In this document: positions 3,860 through 11,255 of the stretch, one piece after another
Position numbering within the stretch: the first letter of the stretch is position 1
Layout: every line of letters begins with the position of its first letter
Assembly (NCBI GenBank): GCA_001789205.1
Contig: MFYT01000086.1
Span: 1-29,844, forward strand
Source of the DNA: Candidatus Raymondbacteria bacterium RIFOXYA2_FULL_49_16
Lineage (GTDB): Bacteria; Fibrobacterota; OXYB2-FULL-49-7; XYB2-FULL-49-35
Direction of reading: 5' to 3'
Length of the DNA stretch: 29,844 nucleotides
Position numbers and translations under genes: made by a program
The notes under the pieces: generated by a model
The model's input: the letters and a program-made list of their open reading frames with translations, nothing else
What the model was told of the DNA's origin: nothing
Database searches by the model: none

Positions 3860-4219
3860 ATGGGTATATTCAACAGTCTAAAGGCTACAGCCGTTGGCCT
3901 CAAGGATACGGCAGTTTCAATGGCCGCAAAAAAGGTCTTTCAGGACATGATGAGGGACTTTGGCGAAGTGCGGGAGTGTGTCATTGATTCCCAAAGCAAG
4001 CGCGTGGTGGTTTCGCTGCACCTGAAAGGGGAGGCTGAGTCATGGGATATTACGCTTGGGGACTATGAGATCAGGACCAGTGACGGGAAGACCTACATTA
4101 GGTTTAATTCCATTGAAGCGTCCCGCGAGTGGATACGGCTTGTGTTTGAACGGTTTCTCCGCATGCGCAGTTTTGAGATACCAGGGGAATACGCTTCGCT
4201 GATAGAAAAACTGGTCTAA
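3860..4219 (+). CDS. hypothetical protein, 119 aa; its 3' end is duplicated at 6126-6204
   Basis: Unknown family. The N-terminal ~35 residues are predicted helical (LKATAVGLKDTAVSMAAKKV), the middle is beta-rich (RVVVSLHLKGEAESWDITLGDYEIRT) and the end returns to helix (REWIRLVFERFLRMRSFEIP). No signal peptide. The centre resembles a small lipid- or ligand-binding sheet, but I name no function. Its last 26 codons recur almost base for base 2 kb downstream, on the far side of the AbiE toxin-antitoxin pair, as the end of a truncated second copy. Base composition is nearer to the core genes than to the AT-rich island. It converges with the toxin gene 8 bases later. Confidence 0.65.
   Translation: MGIFNSLKATAVGLKDTAVSMAAKKVFQDMMRDFGEVRECVIDSQSKRVVVSLHLKGEAESWDITLGDYEIRTSDGKTYIRFNSIEASREWIRLVFERFLRMRSFEIPGEYASLIEKLV
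4130..4208 (+). repeat. direct repeat, left copy (3' end of the 3860 gene)
   Basis: This 79-bp stretch matches 6126-6204 in the same orientation and the same reading frame with 4 mismatches, including 44 identical bases in a row (4136-4179 versus 6132-6175). The two copies bracket the AbiE module. Homologous recombination between them would remove about 2 kb and leave an intact open reading frame. Confidence 0.9.
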
Positions 4220-4227
4220 GTCTTTTT

Positions 4228-5154
4228 TCATTGTGGATATAGCAATTCCATTAGTTTTCTCAAAGCTATTTGATGCTTATCCTTTGGCATCCTACTCAAG
4301 TTTTCAAGTTTCCATCTTACGGCTGGCATGTCCTTGACTCCCGGGACTTTAAGAAATTCCCATTGAGGATCGCCTTTCTTGAAGGAAATTAGGAACTGTT
4401 TCTGTTCATCCGTTATGTGACCGTGCATTTCAAGAACAAGATTCTGTCGGGCTTGTTCCAGCATGTGGGCTGAAACCGGATAAGCAGTCATTTTTTGGAA
4501 TTCCATAATAGCAGTTGGCCTCAAAGGCAGCTGTTTTGGAGCTAAAAGCTCGGCAATAGGACGGTCGTCGCTGATTAAATAAACCAGAAACGCCCCCCAT
4601 GTTTTTTCGTCTATGCCTTCGTTTTTCAACAGTAAGTCAATATCAAAGAGATCGCGGGGGTTTTGCCTGTGCAATGCAGCGCATATTTTGCCCGCATATA
4701 AATCGGCAAACGAAACGACCTGCATAGAAACAAAACCGAATTGCTCTTTTGCCGCTGCACTCATTTCCAGGATACGGCAGGGATGCACTGTTCCTCGTAT
4801 GACCGGAGAGACCTCGATTTTCACCTGCGCGTTCTGTGCGTACACCACTTTTTTAACGCAATGCTGTAGCGAATCGCGCAGGGGAAGCGAATCAACTCTG
4901 GCCGAGGGAATGTCGCGGCATATCCGTTGTTCAATACGAAGCAATGCCTGTGAGATATTGCTCAGCGTTTCAACCCTTGTCTTAAGTGGTAAATACACAA
5001 GATCAATATCCACGGATAGACGCGGCATGTTCCGAACAAATAGATTAATCGCCGTACCGCCTTTAAGCGCGAATTCTTTTTCTTCGGAAATATACGGAAG
5101 CAGACGCACTAGAAGTTGAACCTGCTGGAAGTAGCCAGAGTTTTCAAGCGCCAT
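4228..5154 (-). CDS. abiEii: AbiEii/AbiGii-type nucleotidyltransferase toxin
   Basis: 308 residues. The nucleotidyltransferase signature is near the start: LKGGTAINLF (about 30-39) followed by RLSVDIDLVY, where the two aspartates of DID (49 and 51) are the metal ligands of the DNA polymerase beta-like fold. Family members act as toxins of type IV or related TA systems; characterised relatives (MenT, AbiEii) transfer nucleotides, and some block tRNA acceptor ends. The start at 5154 is chosen because AGGAG precedes this ATG by a suitable distance and it overlaps the last codons of the antitoxin gene by 11 bases, the usual antitoxin-then-toxin arrangement with translational coupling. No frameshift or internal stop; the pair appears functional. 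Confidence 0.88.
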   Translation of the reverse strand: MALENSGYFQQVQLLVRLLPYISEEKEFALKGGTAINLFVRNMPRLSVDIDLVYLPLKTRVETLSNISQALLRIEQRICRDIPSARVDSLPLRDSLQHCVKKVVYAQNAQVKIEVSPVIRGTVHPCRILEMSAAAKEQFGFVSMQVVSFADLYAGKICAALHRQNPRDLFDIDLLLKNEGIDEKTWGAFLVYLISDDRPIAELLAPKQLPLRPTAIMEFQKMTAYPVSAHMLEQARQNLVLEMHGHITDEQKQFLISFKKGDPQWEFLKVPGVKDMPAVRWKLENLSRMPKDKHQIALRKLMELLYPQ

Positions 5155-5917
5155 TGTGCTGCTCCTGTACGACAATCTGGTATTTCGAATCGAGGTGTCC
5201 GCCCTTTTCAATGACACGCTTCCCTTTCCCTAGATTAACGGATTCAATTTTCAGTTTTTCAAACCACGGCAAACCAGTCTTTTCCGCCAGATATAAAAAG
5301 AGACGTTTGGTCCGTATATTATTGCAGGCAAGCAGCAACTCCGTCAACCGGTCCGGCCTCAGTAGTGTAGCGCCTTCCATAATTCGACTGGCATGTTCAA
5401 CGGTAACTGTTTTTGGAACCAGGCTCACCAATTCGAGCATTGCACGCTCTATTACAGAGACGTGCAATGGCCATGGAAGTTTTGGCCAGTCCCAGTCTTG
5501 GATGTATTCTTGGGAGACATTCTTGAGGAACAATGTGTTTGGCCATATTTTTAAAGTTGCCGCAAGATCCAATTTGTTAAACCAGACATTAGTTTTTTGA
5601 ACATTACTCACATACAGGACCACGTCGGGCTTTTCAGTCATAGGGATATAGTGGGCAAAACCTTGCAGTTGCAGTGAGGTAAGCCCTCCCACATGCAATT
5701 CAAGGCCCCCGAAATGGCTGGCTGAAACTACCGCGTCCTGCCATTGAGGCAGCCTTCCTGGACGTCTGTAGACGCCGCGAGATATACTGTTAAGCCAGCT
5801 GTTTTTTACATACTGGGTTACTAACGAGGCCGAATACCCTTGGTTGCGGAGCCATTTTGCGCCAACAACAGCTCCTTCAGGCAAAGCTAATGTTAATTGG
5901 TTTAGCTTATTCTTCAT
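5144..5917 (-). CDS. abiEi: AbiEi-family antitoxin / transcriptional autorepressor
   Basis: 257 residues. The N-terminal ~55 residues form a winged helix (GAVVGAKWLRNQGYSASLVT, SISRGVYRRPG), the DNA-binding domain of AbiEi antitoxins; the central and C-terminal part (VGGLTSLQLQGFAHYI, RAMLELV, KRLFLYLAEK) is the antitoxicity domain of the family. AbiEi represses its own operon by binding inverted repeats upstream and neutralises AbiEii without, as far as is known, forming a stable complex. It is the first gene of the operon and overlaps the toxin. The promoter region carries a perfect 15-bp palindrome (5984-5998). Confidence 0.88.
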   Translation of the reverse strand: MKNKLNQLTLALPEGAVVGAKWLRNQGYSASLVTQYVKNSWLNSISRGVYRRPGRLPQWQDAVVSASHFGGLELHVGGLTSLQLQGFAHYIPMTEKPDVVLYVSNVQKTNVWFNKLDLAATLKIWPNTLFLKNVSQEYIQDWDWPKLPWPLHVSVIERAMLELVSLVPKTVTVEHASRIMEGATLLRPDRLTELLLACNNIRTKRLFLYLAEKTGLPWFEKLKIESVNLGKGKRVIEKGGHLDSKYQIVVQEQHNGA

Positions 5918-5937
5918 TAGGACAGTAGAAATACTCT

Positions 5938-6030
5938 ATTATAAACATAATTAAACCATAACAATTCAATAATTCATTTTTATGATAGTTAAACTATCTT
6001 ATATAAAATATAATTAAACCGATATGGTTT
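5938..6030 (-). promoter_or_regulatory. AbiE operon promoter with candidate AbiEi operators
   Basis: On the minus strand a TATAAT (plus 5938-5943) lies 20 bases before the antitoxin ATG. Upstream are a perfect palindrome GATAGTTAAACTATC (5984-5998), an 11-base direct repeat ATAATTAAACC (5947-5957 and 6010-6020), and an imperfect dyad AAACC-GATAT-GGTTT (6016-6030). Known AbiEi proteins bind paired inverted repeats in this position, so these are the likely autoregulation sites. No obvious Shine-Dalgarno precedes the antitoxin; with a start point near 5931 the leader would be very short. Confidence 0.5.
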
Positions 6031-6062
6031 CTCAAGCTAAATTTTCCGTAGGCTATAGCTAG

Positions 6063-6215
6063 GCGCCTGGAGATTATGAGGTAAGAACCAACATAGACAT
6101 CAAAGCCAATAAAGCGCCACGGGAATGGATGCGGCTTGTGTTTGAACGGTTTCTCCGCATGCGCAGTTTTGAGATCCCAGGGGAACATGCTTCGCTGATA
6201 GAAAGGATTGTTTAA
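6063..6215 (+). pseudogene. 3' fragment of a paralogue of the 3860 gene
   Basis: The reading frame from 6063 gives GDYEVRT, a divergent stretch five residues shorter than in the full gene, then PREWMRLVFERFLRMRSFEI and PGEHASLIERIV before a stop at 6213-6215. This parallels GDYEIRT ... REWIRLVFERFLRMRSFEIP ... EYASLIEKLV of the 3860 gene. A TAG at 6060-6062 closes the frame immediately upstream and no start codon is available. The first half of the gene is missing. The att-like repeat of the tRNA-Leu island begins inside its stop codon. Confidence 0.85.
6126..6204 (+). repeat. direct repeat, right copy
   Basis: Matches 4130-4208 at 75 of 79 positions. Outside this block the two gene copies are clearly diverged, so the near-identity of this block suggests either a recent recombination/gene-conversion patch or a replaced gene end brought in by an inserting element. 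Confidence 0.88.
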
Positions 6216-6237: not shown

Positions 6238-6753
6238 TTAGCGTCTTTTTGCAGGTTTACCATTTTTGACTGATTCGCCTGCTTCAATGAAACAATCCAT
6301 TACGACTTTGGCTGCGCGAATACAGTATTCATTTGCTTGGGAAAATGTGTCAAACCCGTGTTCGTTCATATAGCCGAGGACAAATGCTGTTACGAATTTA
6401 TTAGGACTGTTTAACATTGCTTTCCCAATCAACCGATTGCCTTCATATGCTCCTTCCTTGTCCAAATATTGTAACATAGCTGTGGTGTTGGCGTTCGCTT
6501 TATCAATCATTCTCTGGGAAACCTTTGGGATCTTCAACCCGCTCCGATTGTGGAAAGCATCATAAAGAACAAAGAGAATGTGTAATACTTCTCCTAATTT
6601 ATCCATTGGGACATCAAGCCTTGAAAGACAAAGAACCACGGATAACAGGTTTGGTTGTTTTATGAAAATATCATCCGAAAGCCTTTCCTTGCCACACAGG
6701 TCAAGCGACTCAACATAACGGATACTTTGTGCAAGAATCGCGGCTGAAATCAT
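6238..6753 (-). CDS. hypothetical helical protein, 171 aa
   Basis: Unknown family. Almost entirely alpha-helical by composition, with no membrane segment or signal peptide; the last residues (KNGKPAKRR) are basic. AAAGGA about 8 bases before the ATG at 6753 supports the start. The upstream gene on the same strand is the 458-residue helical protein, 158 bases away, so the two could form one transcription unit. The protein looks complete. A four-helix or immunity-protein-like fold is possible but not shown. Confidence 0.6.
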   Translation of the reverse strand: MISAAILAQSIRYVESLDLCGKERLSDDIFIKQPNLLSVVLCLSRLDVPMDKLGEVLHILFVLYDAFHNRSGLKIPKVSQRMIDKANANTTAMLQYLDKEGAYEGNRLIGKAMLNSPNKFVTAFVLGYMNEHGFDTFSQANEYCIRAAKVVMDCFIEAGESVKNGKPAKRR

Positions 6754-6911
6754 TACCAGAATCCTTTAAGCTTTTTCTTCCTCATACGGCACGATTTTCC
6801 AGATTTCAGGTTTTATCATTACCTGGGAAGTCCAAATTCTCGGCATCCATAATATATAGAACGCCCTGCATAAATTCCAAGGACCAAGGTATCAAATTGT
6901 TTGCCCATTAC

Positions 6912-8288
6912 CTACGCGACCTGTGGAAGGAATTCTGAAAAGCCTTTCTTATCACGGAATATCTGGTTCAATTCACCAAGATAATTGTGCCATTCTTGAA
7001 GTTTGCATAATTTCAAATACAAAGGCTTTATTTTTCTAAGATGTTCAGCACCACCTTCAAACCACCCTTCTTGTGCTACACTCAATGCTGACTCTGCCGA
7101 CCATTTCCAGAGTTTTATAGCCCATTCAGGATGCGTTTCTTCAAGGGCTGGCGCATACCAACTGAATGGAAGGTTTCTGGGTTGCGATGATATTTCCCAG
7201 CGTTGGAGCCAATAAACCATTTCGTCTGGTTTTTCATCATCACTGGAAATCATAAACAAGGCTTTGTAGAAGGGCAGTTCAGGCGTCTCTCCGTTGGGCG
7301 GCAAACTTAGACCGCTATATTTTAATGGCTCTGGCAGGCGTTCGGGCAGTTTTCCAGAAACGCGGTATTCCACTATCACAGGTTTCATAATTTCCCAAAC
7401 CCCAGCTTTTTTACATAGGCCTATTAAATGGCTTGAGAAAGGACTTCCTCCATATTCCAGATAGTCGTCCAGTTCAATCGGGACAGCCTCAAGCAAAGTT
7501 CCCTTTTTAATCAGGTATTCTTTTAAAATACTACGGCAACAACCAGCTTGCCTTAATTTTTCTTTATCTTTGGATTGGGCTATTTTCTGGACCCATTTTC
7601 GCGCATCTTCATACTGGTCATTTTTTAATAAAAATTCAACAAGGCGATGGTATTGATTGTTTTCTTCAGCCTCCCTGATGCAGAATGGGAGCAGCCTTTC
7701 TTTCATACCGGCTTGTTCCATTAATTCATAATCCCATTGGGCATATTTATATCGGGTAAAACCGTATTTCTTACCCTTTTCTTTTTGAATGCGGGTTTCA
7801 AGTCCAGCCAGCACTGCCTCCAATTCAGACGGGGTTAATGGTCTTTTTTTAATATAGCTTTTCAACCCCAACCATTCATTATGACCAGTTCTATCTCTTA
7901 AAAAGGTGTCTATCAGCCAGAGCATTTGGTCACTTTTCGATAAGGTTGATTTCTTTAGGTAATGGATAGCTATGCGTATAGCCGCATGTATTTCCCACCA
8001 AACATCGTTATCCTCAAAAACATCCATGATGTTGTTTCCTTTATCGAGCATAGCTTCAAGAATCCGCAAAAGGGCATCATAACACCGCTTACGCCCAAGT
8101 TTTCTCATTCCCTTGACAGCCAATGCATAATTTGGATAGCGATTGACAGTTTTACGCTTATCAATATCTCCGTCTGTTTTCCGTGGGTAATCAATCAGCT
8201 TTAAAATGGTTTTTTCAAGGGCTTCCTTGTCGTCAGAAAGGGTAGCGCGAACCTTGTGGACTTTTAATTTTTTGGGTTTTAATGACAT
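6912..8288 (-). CDS. alpha-solenoid protein, 458 aa, resembling the C-terminal region of SWIM zinc-finger proteins
   Basis: Start at 8288 is supported by GGGAG just upstream. The sequence is a run of amphipathic helices with repeat-like units (RLVEFLLKNDQYEDARKWVQ, HPEWAIKLWKWSAESAL, LYLKLCKLQEWHNYLGELN), typical of TPR-like helical arrays. The general layout recalls the long C-terminal helical part of bacterial SWIM zinc-finger proteins, but the CxCx(n)CxH SWIM motif itself is absent, so it is either a truncated relative or a free-standing solenoid. No enzyme motif is visible. A basic N-terminus (KPKKLKVHKVR) precedes the helices. It lies in the island, leading the pair with the 171-residue protein. 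Confidence 0.55.
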   Translation of the reverse strand: MSLKPKKLKVHKVRATLSDDKEALEKTILKLIDYPRKTDGDIDKRKTVNRYPNYALAVKGMRKLGRKRCYDALLRILEAMLDKGNNIMDVFEDNDVWWEIHAAIRIAIHYLKKSTLSKSDQMLWLIDTFLRDRTGHNEWLGLKSYIKKRPLTPSELEAVLAGLETRIQKEKGKKYGFTRYKYAQWDYELMEQAGMKERLLPFCIREAEENNQYHRLVEFLLKNDQYEDARKWVQKIAQSKDKEKLRQAGCCRSILKEYLIKKGTLLEAVPIELDDYLEYGGSPFSSHLIGLCKKAGVWEIMKPVIVEYRVSGKLPERLPEPLKYSGLSLPPNGETPELPFYKALFMISSDDEKPDEMVYWLQRWEISSQPRNLPFSWYAPALEETHPEWAIKLWKWSAESALSVAQEGWFEGGAEHLRKIKPLYLKLCKLQEWHNYLGELNQIFRDKKGFSEFLPQVA

Positions 8289-8369
8289 ATGACTCCCGTG
8301 GATATGGATGGTTTTCTATTCCATCACCTTTTTCAAACTGAACTTGAATTCCCGTTCCAGATAGGCACC

Positions 8370-8648
8370 CTATAAATATGCGGCAACCAAGTCCCCTTCA
8401 TTTAATCCAAGCATTGTATCCTGCGAGCGTTTTTCCTGGCCTGCAGAGATGAAACTATATTTTATGTAATCATCCCAGTTCTGATGACGGCTTTCCCCAA
8501 CATTATAATAGTAGAACCCATTCTGAAAATCGAATTCGGGTAATTCACGGTGCAGGGTGTTATGGGGGTGGAATTTATCAGCAAAATGCCCTGTGGCAAT
8601 ATTTGTTGTCCATTTTCCCAGTTTCCAGAGAAGGTTTTTTTCAACCAT
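8370..8648 (-). pseudogene. fragment with a PUA/EVE-like 'SAGQ ... GDLVAAYL' module, ended by an in-frame stop
   Basis: The translated stretch contains FYYYNVGESRHQNWDDYIKY, SFISAGQ and LNEGDLVAAYL. This is the opening of a small domain that I associate with nuclease- or PUA/EVE-related proteins, where it normally continues with a KGxGYVGxGxV segment. Here a TAG at the expected lysine position stops the frame, and the next codons encode GAYLEREF rather than the expected glycine-rich strand. The N-terminal side overlaps a different frame (8462-8905). I read it as the decayed end of a restriction/defence-type gene; family assignment is from memory of the motif and moderately uncertain. Confidence 0.45.
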
Positions 8649-8905
8649 GTCGGAACAACCATCCAGACAGCCAAAGCAAAATTATTAAATATTATTTGTG
8701 GGAGAATATCTATGGGCTTTTTCTCATTAATGATTCCCCAAGTGTCGCAAAGATTTATATCTATTTTATTACATTCCCTTATGGAGCTATCAATGGACTT
8801 CATATTTAAATTTATCGGCTTAACTTTCTGTATTACAAAATAATCAGAAATTATGAAATATTGAACTGGACTATTAAAATTGAACATCGGAGTGAAATAT
8901 TGCAT
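8462..8905 (-). CDS. hypothetical protein, N-terminal part likely genuine, probably broken
   Basis: GAGG six bases before the ATG at 8905 argues for real translation initiation. The first ~85 residues (SPVQYFIISDYFVIQKVKPI, CDTWGIINEKKP, IIFNNFALAVWMVVPT) look like a genuine protein, but I do not recognise it. From about base 8600 downward the frame overlaps the PUA-like fragment in another frame, and one of the two must be non-coding there. A frameshift joining the two, or two unrelated gene pieces abutted by deletion, would both fit. Confidence 0.35.
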   Translation of the reverse strand: MQYFTPMFNFNSPVQYFIISDYFVIQKVKPINLNMKSIDSSIRECNKIDINLCDTWGIINEKKPIDILPQIIFNNFALAVWMVVPTWLKKTFSGNWENGQQILPQGILLINSTPITPCTVNYPNSIFRMGSTIIMLGKAVIRTGMIT

Positions 8906-9034
8906 TACAATCCTCTATATTGAAGATAATTTATTTGCTGGCTTTGTGTTAAGAAAACCGGGCATTGGTCAAGGAAATAAGGTATTTTTCTATATGAAAG
9001 TCTTTATCTCTATTCTTTTTGTATGGAGATTTGT

Positions 9035-9676
9035 ATGAATACAACTGAATTATATTCAAAAAGATTTGCTGAATTATTCGAGGTTGGCAGTAAAATAACG
9101 CCGCAGAATAATGGTGATGGCCCCGTTGTTGATTCTGAGATATTTCAAGAATGGGCTGTAAGCGTTTTAAATTTATTTTCAATCGCATTCGGAGAAAACA
9201 ACACACATTTTCGTGCATTTAAATATCATTATGACAATTTTCATGGTTGGGCTGGAGGTTTTTCTAAATGTTGGGGGGTCTTTAAAGCGGCTAAAAATGA
9301 TTTTGAGGGAGGTTACGTATTGTCCGTTGAAAGAACGATTTCAGGGGAAGTTTTAGGAGATTTTATTTTACTTGCCAAAAACGCCTTGAAAAGTAACAAT
9401 GTATATGTAGCAGCTGTTTTAGCTTGTGCAGCTCTTGAAGATGCGTTAAAACGCTATGCGAGAGCCAATAGCTTAAATGTTGATGAAAAACCAATGCAAG
9501 AAGTGGTGTCGGCATTAAAAGCCAAGGGTCTTGTTTCTGGCGCATCAAAAACCTTATTAGACACAATGCCTAAAATACGAGATTATGCTTTGCATGCAAA
9601 TTGGGAGAAAATATCACCGCCAGATGTTAGTAGTGTGATTGGTTTTGTTGAACAATTTCTTCAAGAAAATTTCTAA
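9035..9676 (+). CDS. HEPN-like domain protein, 213 aa
   Basis: The C-terminal ~95 residues (VYVAAVLACAALEDALKRYA, then MPKIRDYALHANWE and DVSSVIGFVEQFLQ) have the helical layout of DUF4145/HEPN domains, with R182-DYAL-H187 matching the R-x4-6-H motif of HEPN ribonucleases. The N-terminal half (Trp-rich FHGWAGGFSKCWGVF) is unassigned. HEPN proteins are common RNA-cleaving effectors or partners in toxin-antitoxin and abortive-infection systems. Start at 9035 rather than 9023 because GGAG (9025-9028) is well placed for it. No nucleotidyltransferase (MNT) partner is adjacent, so if it is a toxin its antitoxin is not obvious; a non-toxic scaffold role is equally possible. Confidence 0.6.
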   Translation: MNTTELYSKRFAELFEVGSKITPQNNGDGPVVDSEIFQEWAVSVLNLFSIAFGENNTHFRAFKYHYDNFHGWAGGFSKCWGVFKAAKNDFEGGYVLSVERTISGEVLGDFILLAKNALKSNNVYVAAVLACAALEDALKRYARANSLNVDEKPMQEVVSALKAKGLVSGASKTLLDTMPKIRDYALHANWEKISPPDVSSVIGFVEQFLQENF

Positions 9677-9713
9677 ACAGCCTGCCTATCCTTATCAACC
9701 GATTAATTTCTTT

Positions 9714-9902
9714 TCACGCCCCTTCAACCAACCTGACAATATCGTTCCCGCATACCTTACAGAAGCCCTGTAATATAAGGTCAGGTTTTTTAAAGACAAG
9801 CGTGAAGTTTTCTATCGTGACTGCCTTCATACAGCTACCGCACCAACAAGACTCGATAACACCTTTTTTCCCGTGTTCAGGCATCTTCTTCCAAAATTCC
9901 AT
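9714..9902 (-). CDS. small zinc-ribbon-like protein, 62 aa
   Basis: Two cysteine pairs, CWCGSC and CKVCG, about 27 residues apart form a likely treble-clef or zinc-ribbon site; the segment between them (VTIENFTLVFKKPDLILQGF) reads as two strands. The N-terminus MEFWKKMPEHGKKGVIESC is helical. Small proteins of this type are found as stand-alone conserved hypotheticals; the function is unknown. The Shine-Dalgarno site is weak. It converges with the HEPN gene and is complete. Confidence 0.55.
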   Translation of the reverse strand: MEFWKKMPEHGKKGVIESCWCGSCMKAVTIENFTLVFKKPDLILQGFCKVCGNDIVRLVEGA

Positions 9903-10119
9903 TGCTTCGATTCTCGTCCATCAGAAGTAGTTGATGTTAATGTTTTACACTCAGAAAGGCCGTCAGAGAGTATGATATAAAGCTATGAAAAGGGGGAAGT
10001 CGCCCCCCCCCTGTTGATGGCAAGTTAACCATGTTCCAGTGGACAGGCCTACCTCTTCCCAGTCAAGAGCGGGGCTATGAAAGGAATAGAAGATGGAAAA
10101 ACCACATCTTGCCTAATTC

Positions 10120-10158
10120 AAATTATCGGCAATACATTGTATTTATTGCCGATAATTT
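10120..10158 (+). promoter_or_regulatory. 15-bp perfect inverted repeat, operator of the second AbiE locus
   Basis: AAATTATCGGCAATA (10120-10134) and its exact complement (10144-10158) are separated by 9 bases and end 16 bases before the antitoxin ATG at 10175. A very similar inverted repeat recurs at 10887-10924 in front of the toxin remnant. Self-binding by the winged-helix antitoxin is the simplest explanation. Confidence 0.65.
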
Positions 10159-10174
10159 GTATATTTAGCCTATC

Positions 10175-10906
10175 ATGAAACAACTCAATAAAGAAAACCT
10201 TCTTGCCGAGTTTGATAAAACTGACTCGTTCACTACGGATAATGTTTTCAATTTCTATAAGTCTCTGAACCCTGCAGTCAAAAGAAAAACAGTGAATTGG
10301 AGAATTTATGAATTTATCCAGAATGGGATTTTGGGGAGAATTGGTCGGGGTGTATACACGATTAATTTAAAGGGGGGCTTTAAAATCATTCCGGGGAAGA
10401 AAGAAAAATCAATTTCCTTGGCAATCAAAAAGAAATTCCCGTTTGTTTCATACTGCGTATGGCACACCTCTATTTTAAAGGAATTTCATCACCATATGAC
10501 AAACTTGGAATTCATAATTGTTGAGGTTGAACACGAAGCAGCCCAGCCTGTCTTTCACCACCTTAAAGAAGCATATAAAAACACATTCTTGGAACCCTCT
10601 AAGACGCTTTTTAACGATTTTATTTCTGGCACAAAAGATGCAGTGATTGTCAAGACTCTGATAAGCGAAGCACCGCTTCAGAAAATTGAGGGTTTTTCCA
10701 TTCCTGTCTTGGAAAAGGTATTAGTCGATTTGTATGCGGATAGCGATATATTCTTTTTTATTCAGGGAAACGAATTCCTGAATATTTTAAGTAACGCCGT
10801 TGAAAAATATTCCATTAATTATGATAAGTTATTACGCTATGCCGCACGAAGAGGAAAAAGAGAAGAACTTAAAAAGATTTTGAATCAAATTACCGGCAAT
10901 AAATGA
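10175..10906 (+). CDS. AbiEi-like antitoxin (DUF6577 type), orphaned
   Basis: 243 residues. The N-terminus is a winged helix (FTTDNVFNFYKSL, KRKTVNWRIYEFIQNGILGR, GRGVYTI) as in AbiEi-type antitoxins; the rest (FVSYCVWHTSILKEFHHHM, EGFSIPVLEKVLVDLYAD, LLRYAARRGKREELKKIL) matches the DUF6577 group. It is expected to repress its operon and to neutralise a nucleotidyltransferase toxin encoded just downstream. That toxin is reduced to 26 codons by the island boundary, so the antitoxin is an orphan. The gene itself is intact and has a strong dyad at its promoter. It could still protect against related toxins supplied from outside. Confidence 0.75.
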   Translation: MKQLNKENLLAEFDKTDSFTTDNVFNFYKSLNPAVKRKTVNWRIYEFIQNGILGRIGRGVYTINLKGGFKIIPGKKEKSISLAIKKKFPFVSYCVWHTSILKEFHHHMTNLEFIIVEVEHEAAQPVFHHLKEAYKNTFLEPSKTLFNDFISGTKDAVIVKTLISEAPLQKIEGFSIPVLEKVLVDLYADSDIFFFIQGNEFLNILSNAVEKYSINYDKLLRYAARRGKREELKKILNQITGNK

Positions 10907-10924
10907 TTCTGTTGCCGATAATTT
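10887..10924 (+). promoter_or_regulatory. second copy of the operator-like inverted repeat, at the antitoxin/toxin junction
   Basis: AAATTACCGGCAATA (10887-10901) and TGTTGCCGATAATTT (10910-10924) differ from the promoter copy by one base in each arm, with an 8-base spacer. It covers the antitoxin stop codon (10904-10906) and lies 12 bases before the toxin ATG, so the antitoxin may control the toxin at a second point. Confidence 0.6.
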
Positions 10925-10936
10925 GGAACGGGAACT

Positions 10937-11017
10937 ATGATTTCACAAGAAACATTACAATTCGATTGGATAAAGAAAACAGCCAGCACAAACCATAATG
11001 CTGATAAAATAAATTAA
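10937..11017 (+). pseudogene. N-terminal remnant of an AbiEii-type toxin, cut at the att repeat
   Basis: After GGAAC, an ATG opens a 26-codon frame starting MISQETLQFDWIKK and ending NADKIN before a TAA at 11015-11017. The MISxExL...WI...DK start is the typical beginning of nucleotidyltransferase toxins paired with AbiEi/DUF6577 antitoxins; the following GGT and DxD motifs should come about 25 residues later and are absent. The stop codon overlaps the first base of the repeat that runs into tRNA-Leu, so the rest of the gene was lost when this junction formed. Confidence 0.65.
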
Positions 11018-11031
11018 AAACTGCGGAAGGG
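11017..11031 (+). repeat. att-like direct repeat, proximal copy, overlapping tRNA-Leu 3' end
   Basis: AAAACTGCGGAAGGG, identical to 6214-6228. Ten of its bases (11022-11031) are the 3' end of the tRNA: the acceptor 3' strand and the beginning of the T-stem. This is the classical position of a phage or island attachment site. Confidence 0.6.
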
Positions 11032-11102
11032 GGGACTTGAACCCCCACGCGATTAAGCACAAGATCCTAAGTCTTGCGTGTCTGCCATTCCACCACATCC
11101 GC
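11022..11102 (-). tRNA. tRNA-Leu, anticodon UAG
   Basis: The minus strand folds as a class II tRNA: acceptor GCGGATG/CTTCCGC, D-stem GTG/CAC with GG in the loop, anticodon stem CAAGA/TCTTG with loop CTTAGGA (anticodon TAG), a long variable region, T-stem GGGGG/CCCCC with loop TTCAAGT, and discriminator A. CCA is not encoded; a T-rich tract follows. Oddity: position 6-67 is a U-U mismatch in the acceptor stem, falling inside the part shared with the att repeat, so it could be a scar from integration replacing the 3' end. The D-loop is also one base shorter than in the fragment upstream. Confidence 0.9.
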
Positions 11103-11137
11103 AATAATTAATTTCAAAATATCCTAAGTCTTGCGTG

Positions 11138-11194
11138 CTTGCCTCGCCTCGCCTTGGAGTCCTGTGGTTATTGTACGAGTCAAGGCGAGGCGGG
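11138..11194 (-). repeat. palindromic insertion 1 in tRNA-Leu remnant (57 bp)
   Basis: Begins CTTGCCTCGCC and ends GGCGGG. Contains a perfect 12-bp inverted repeat, CGCCTCGCCTTG (11145-11156) with CAAGGCGAGGCG (11181-11192), around a 24-base loop. It interrupts the D-arm/anticodon-arm junction of the tRNA copy. Shares its ends with insertion 2. Confidence 0.65.
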
Positions 11195-11208
11195 TCTGCC
11201 AATTCCAC

Positions 11209-11233
11209 TTGCCTCGCCCTGACAGGGGCGGGC
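11209..11233 (-). repeat. palindromic insertion 2 in tRNA-Leu remnant (25 bp)
   Basis: Begins TTGCCTCGCC (preceded by C) and ends GGGGCGGGC, with an imperfect dyad CGCCCTG/CAGGGGCG around a single base. It interrupts the D-stem of the tRNA copy. The start and end match insertion 1, so both appear to be members of one short palindromic repeat family. Confidence 0.6.
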
Positions 11234-11255
11234 CACATCCGCGAGGGATATAATA

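Follow-up and report, generated by a model that had tools for sequence, protein, structure and literature searches.

A near-identical repeat around an AbiE operon in Candidatus Raymondbacteria, read as gene conversion between tandem paralogues

In Candidatus Raymondbacteria bacterium RIFOXYA2_FULL_49_16, an AbiE toxin-antitoxin operon lies between an intact gene, here called X or X1, and a truncated second copy, psi-X2, and the two copies share an almost identical block in direct orientation. The arrangement most probably (about 0.7) arose from a tandem pair X1-X2: insertion of the AbiE operon cost X2 its 5' part, and what remained was converted with X1. The repeat is then best read as a by-product, not as machinery. 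The analysed window was the entire contig C86 (MFYT01000086.1, 29,844 nucleotides) of a genome of 5.43 Mb in 112 contigs. The features of the locus are listed in Table 1.

Table 1. Coordinates of the AbiE operon, the two X copies and the shared block in the window
Feature	Position	Strand	Description
Gene X (X1)	3860..4219	+	119 aa, intact; belongs to a phylum-wide family
Near-identical block, copy 1	4130..4208	+	79 bp, 4 mismatches; 44 bp identical (4136-4179)
AbiEii nucleotidyltransferase toxin	4228..5217	-	GTG start at 5217, or ATG at 5154; motifs, Pfam, PADLOC
AbiEi antitoxin/autorepressor	5144..5917	-	AbiEi_3_N and AbiEi_3; Pfam, PADLOC
abiE promoter region, A+T-rich	5918..6063	-	candidate AbiEi operator: imperfect inverted repeat 5953-5973/6010-6030
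psi-X2, second X copy	about 6064..6215	+	diverged, 5'-truncated, without start codon
Near-identical block, copy 2	6126..6204	+	gene-conversion tract about 6132-6204

The AbiE operon

The AbiEi and AbiEii genes are neighbours in one operon. It runs on the minus strand and is convergent with X; the two stops, of X and of AbiEii, are separated by 8 bp. The first-pass annotation had placed such an operon between X and a truncated X copy. Its coordinates were correct, and both genes were confirmed by Pfam (E = 1.6e-38 and 7.4e-36) and PADLOC (1.1e-80 and 1.4e-111). AbiEii carries hGGx15DhD with Arg in motif II, K and R in motif III and D in motif IV (KGGTAINLFVRNMPRLSVDID, LYAGKICAALHRQNPRDLFDID), and mutation of these motifs abolishes toxicity in the characterised system (PMC3985639). 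Ahead of AbiEi, an A+T-rich stretch of 146 bp, with a GC content of 23% over 5918-6056, contains the imperfect inverted repeat that is the candidate AbiEi operator. AbiEi is known to repress its own promoter, and an A+T-rich region with an inverted repeat is as expected if it does so here (PMC7319586).

The operon resembles type IV AbiE systems (PF11459/PF17194; PF08843) in its two-gene order, antitoxin first and toxin second, in the catalytic motifs of AbiEii and in the A+T-rich promoter with an inverted repeat (PMC3985639, PMC7319586). No notable difference was seen in the operon itself. By analogy with the published systems, AbiEi presumably acts both as repressor of its own promoter and as antidote to AbiEii, and AbiEii is presumably a nucleotidyltransferase-like toxin with a bacteriostatic effect, active in phage defence or maintenance. 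The operon is thus ordinary; only its position between two X copies is unusual, but explicable.

The genome contains nine matches to the AbiEii family. At the other eight loci, the search for flanking direct repeats gave only short matches at chance level. Three related AbiE operons elsewhere in the phylum had both flanks at least partly present, and flanking repeats were absent at two of the three. At the third (genome G153, with a left flank of 658 bp), a 36-bp flanking repeat was rejected as an interspersed repeat: the pattern TTTCGTGCAAAACTRTATCGACTGTATCGATG occurs at 17 places in that genome, compared with 0 for the reversed control pattern. Two of its copies (294-329 and 5244-5279 of locus L107) flank a 5-kb stretch with the AbiE operon, a NUDIX gene and a NAD synthase gene.

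Elsewhere in the window, a second AbiEi-type gene was observed at 10175-10906 on the plus strand (DUF6577; PADLOC AbiEi, E = 4.5e-83). It has no AbiEii beside it, is preceded by a near-perfect hairpin at 10116-10162 and adjoins the 3' end of a tRNA-Leu gene (11103-11021, minus strand; region 11021-11240). In front of this tRNA gene lies a degenerate tandem duplicate of its own 5' part, in which 11115-11143 matches 11058-11086 at 86%; G+C-rich palindromic pieces (GGCGAGGCAAG / GCCTCGCC) appear to interrupt the duplicate. The region 6238-11000, which runs up to the 3' end of the tRNA-Leu gene, has the appearance of an acquired island: its GC content is 35-42%, compared with about 52% beyond 11100, and its genes are mostly without a named family. 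No integrase was seen in this stretch.

The repeat block and the second X copy

The blocks at 4130-4208 and 6126-6204 were recomputed and differ at exactly 4 of 79 positions; 44 consecutive bases are identical (4136-4179 and 6132-6175), and strand and frame are the same in both copies. These values agree fully with those of the first-pass annotation. The full ungapped match between X1 and psi-X2 covers 129 nt at 81% identity with a spacing of 1996, a length that lies far outside what chance would give within a few kb. No third copy of X or of the block was found in the 5.43-Mb genome at the DNA or protein level. Searches of GTDB contigs and viral contigs with X and with the 11-residue core peptide of the block gave no matches.

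Outside the block, the copies had been described simply as diverged. The divergence is real, but this description understated what remains, since homology in frame continues on both sides. Upstream, it reaches about 6064 and includes a 15-bp deletion in psi-X2 (GDYE-RT...A-REW); in the codon alignment psi-X2 reads GDYEVRT(-5 aa)NIDIKANKAPREWM, compared with GDYEIRTSDGKTYIRFNSIEASREWI in X1. Downstream, the final codons are homologous yet diverged, with RIV-stop in psi-X2 and KLV-stop in X1 and the Val codons GTC/GTT. The same alignment gave matches at 70/73 sites within the block and at 53/79 outside it. Where both copies encode the same residue, the codons differ synonymously in 6/12 cases upstream and in 1/22 within the block (Fisher p = 0.004, a somewhat optimistic value because the block edges were picked from the same data). 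A run of 44 identities was attained in 45 of 100,000 site shuffles.

Protein selection does not account for the block, because the family shows no higher conservation in this region than in the middle of the protein (mean match to X of 0.17 and 0.30, respectively). Diverged in-frame homology on both sides, also at synonymous sites, therefore points to a gene-conversion tract between paralogues and not to the core of an attachment site.

psi-X2 has no usable start codon, a TAG lies just upstream, and the genome no longer contains its 5' part; it is thus a pseudogene remnant. Its unconverted part comprises only about 25 codons, which is too short for a tree. The shorter hairpin of psi-X2 is also present in the second tandem copy of one relative (locus L063).

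The X family in the phylum

A profile search placed members of the X family in 103/167 genomes of the phylum. X has relatives in the phylum at 23-29% identity, and the genomes compared are related to that of the window at the phylum level. In 18 of the phylum's genomes (17 of one genus and 1 of another), two X copies are adjacent on the same strand. Eleven of these tandem loci were read, and the gap between the copies is 12-22 bp with no cargo in any of them (one start is uncertain). Capture between tandem paralogues, one of the two origins proposed in the first-pass annotation, is supported by these cargo-free pairs. They also go most of the way towards what that annotation had named as refuting evidence, namely ancestral tandem paralogues in related genomes without variable cargo between them or empty sites.

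In the best-sampled family of relatives, X mostly has methionine aminopeptidase and DEAD-box helicase genes near one end and an EcsC-like gene near the other. The tandem pairs (loci L060-L070) likewise lie next to these three genes, a setting conserved across the genus. The neighbours of X in the genome of the window differ from those of the relatives and include a divergent radical SAM gene upstream. No AbiE genes were found near X in 20 loci read from relatives, and X is there mostly beside housekeeping genes, so the suggested link between X and the AbiE system is not seen elsewhere.

X gave no matches to Pfam or NCBIfam families. Its AlphaFold model (pLDDT 81) consists of a helix, a four-stranded sheet and two helices, and comparison of the model with the PDB gave no significant match (best E = 0.033, TM = 0.33). 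Searches of phage and plasmid records and of viral contigs gave no relative of X.

Origin of the arrangement

The proposed starting state is a pair of tandem paralogues X1-X2, as recurs in the X family. The AbiE operon would have entered between them, probably by an illegitimate event, with loss of the 5' part and the start of X2. After or during this insertion, a stretch of about 73 bp in the 3' remnant of X2 would have been homogenised with X1. We infer this order of events and this mode of entry, and also conversion of the RecA type because the divergence pattern is two-sided. No IS element or target-site duplication was noticed at the AbiE insertion. The expected marks of gene-converted tandem paralogues were both found, namely cargo-free tandem copies (at the phylum level) and a tract of low synonymous divergence with diverged flanks. 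As in known gene conversion between tandem paralogues, a tract of near-identity that extends to synonymous sites lies inside otherwise diverged paralogues; the difference here is that the pair includes a truncated pseudogene and that the copies stand apart by 2 kb of cargo. Our literature search found no specific precedent for exactly such an arrangement. The tandem pairs of the relatives, which are related at the phylum level, sit in another gene neighbourhood; this speaks against the proposed origin, and these pairs may be independent duplications.

The closest rival is a single-crossover (Campbell-type) capture, in which AbiE would have arrived on circular or incoming DNA together with part of a diverged X-like gene, and a crossover within the 3' end of the chromosomal X would have taken this DNA up. 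Conversion around the crossover would leave a hybrid gene as the left copy and mostly donor sequence as the right copy. The same geometry is obtained, with an intact left copy, a right copy diverged upstream and near-identity around the crossover. However, a donor with a partial X is required, and no relative of X turned up in the phage, plasmid and viral sequences searched. A second copy is more simply explained by tandem pairs; we regard this capture as unlikely. Another reading, in which AbiE moves without a recombinase as a small circle that carries the operon with a partial host gene and enters the 3' end of that gene by homologous recombination, appears quite improbable. If true, such entry would keep the host gene whole and the module excisable.

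The other origin proposed in the first-pass annotation, an element that targets the vicinity of a gene end and brings along a replacement for it, is not supported. Taken here as site-specific insertion close to the 3' end of X, so that X would stay whole, it is judged still less probable. The locus resembles integrative elements that use a gene 3' end as attB, where the repeat arises by duplication of the attachment core, in that the end of a gene is directly repeated, cargo lies between the copies and excision would leave a whole gene. Such a core would border unrelated DNA on the element side, but at this locus diverged homology passes beyond the repeat on both sides. In addition, the 2 kb between the repeats contain no integrase or other recombinase ORF, the block has no further copy in the genome or in the viral and genome collections, and repeats of this kind are absent from the other AbiE loci. 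Formally, a recombinase could act in trans. Two defining tests of such an element, an encoded recombinase and identity confined to the core, both failed. Recombination between the repeats would indeed leave one full-length gene, as had been pointed out; this is geometrically true but is not evidence that it has occurred.

The least probable explanation is an assembly artefact, by which two separate X loci would have been joined via the repeat. The genome is a draft in 112 contigs, but the exact identity extends over merely 44 bp and the word lengths usual in assembly exceed this length. A misjoin would also have to give the copies a common orientation on the two sides of a single operon.

Under the preferred origin from tandem paralogues, deletion between the 44-bp identities could occur at a low rate through ordinary recombination. 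The analysis sets aside a tempting claim of a mobile element and illustrates how a gene-conversion tract between paralogues can mimic the duplication of an attachment site. The simple check that separates the two is whether homology goes on, diverged and in frame, on both sides of the identical block. The X family itself, single or in tandem and without a family name in Pfam or NCBIfam, is worth cataloguing.
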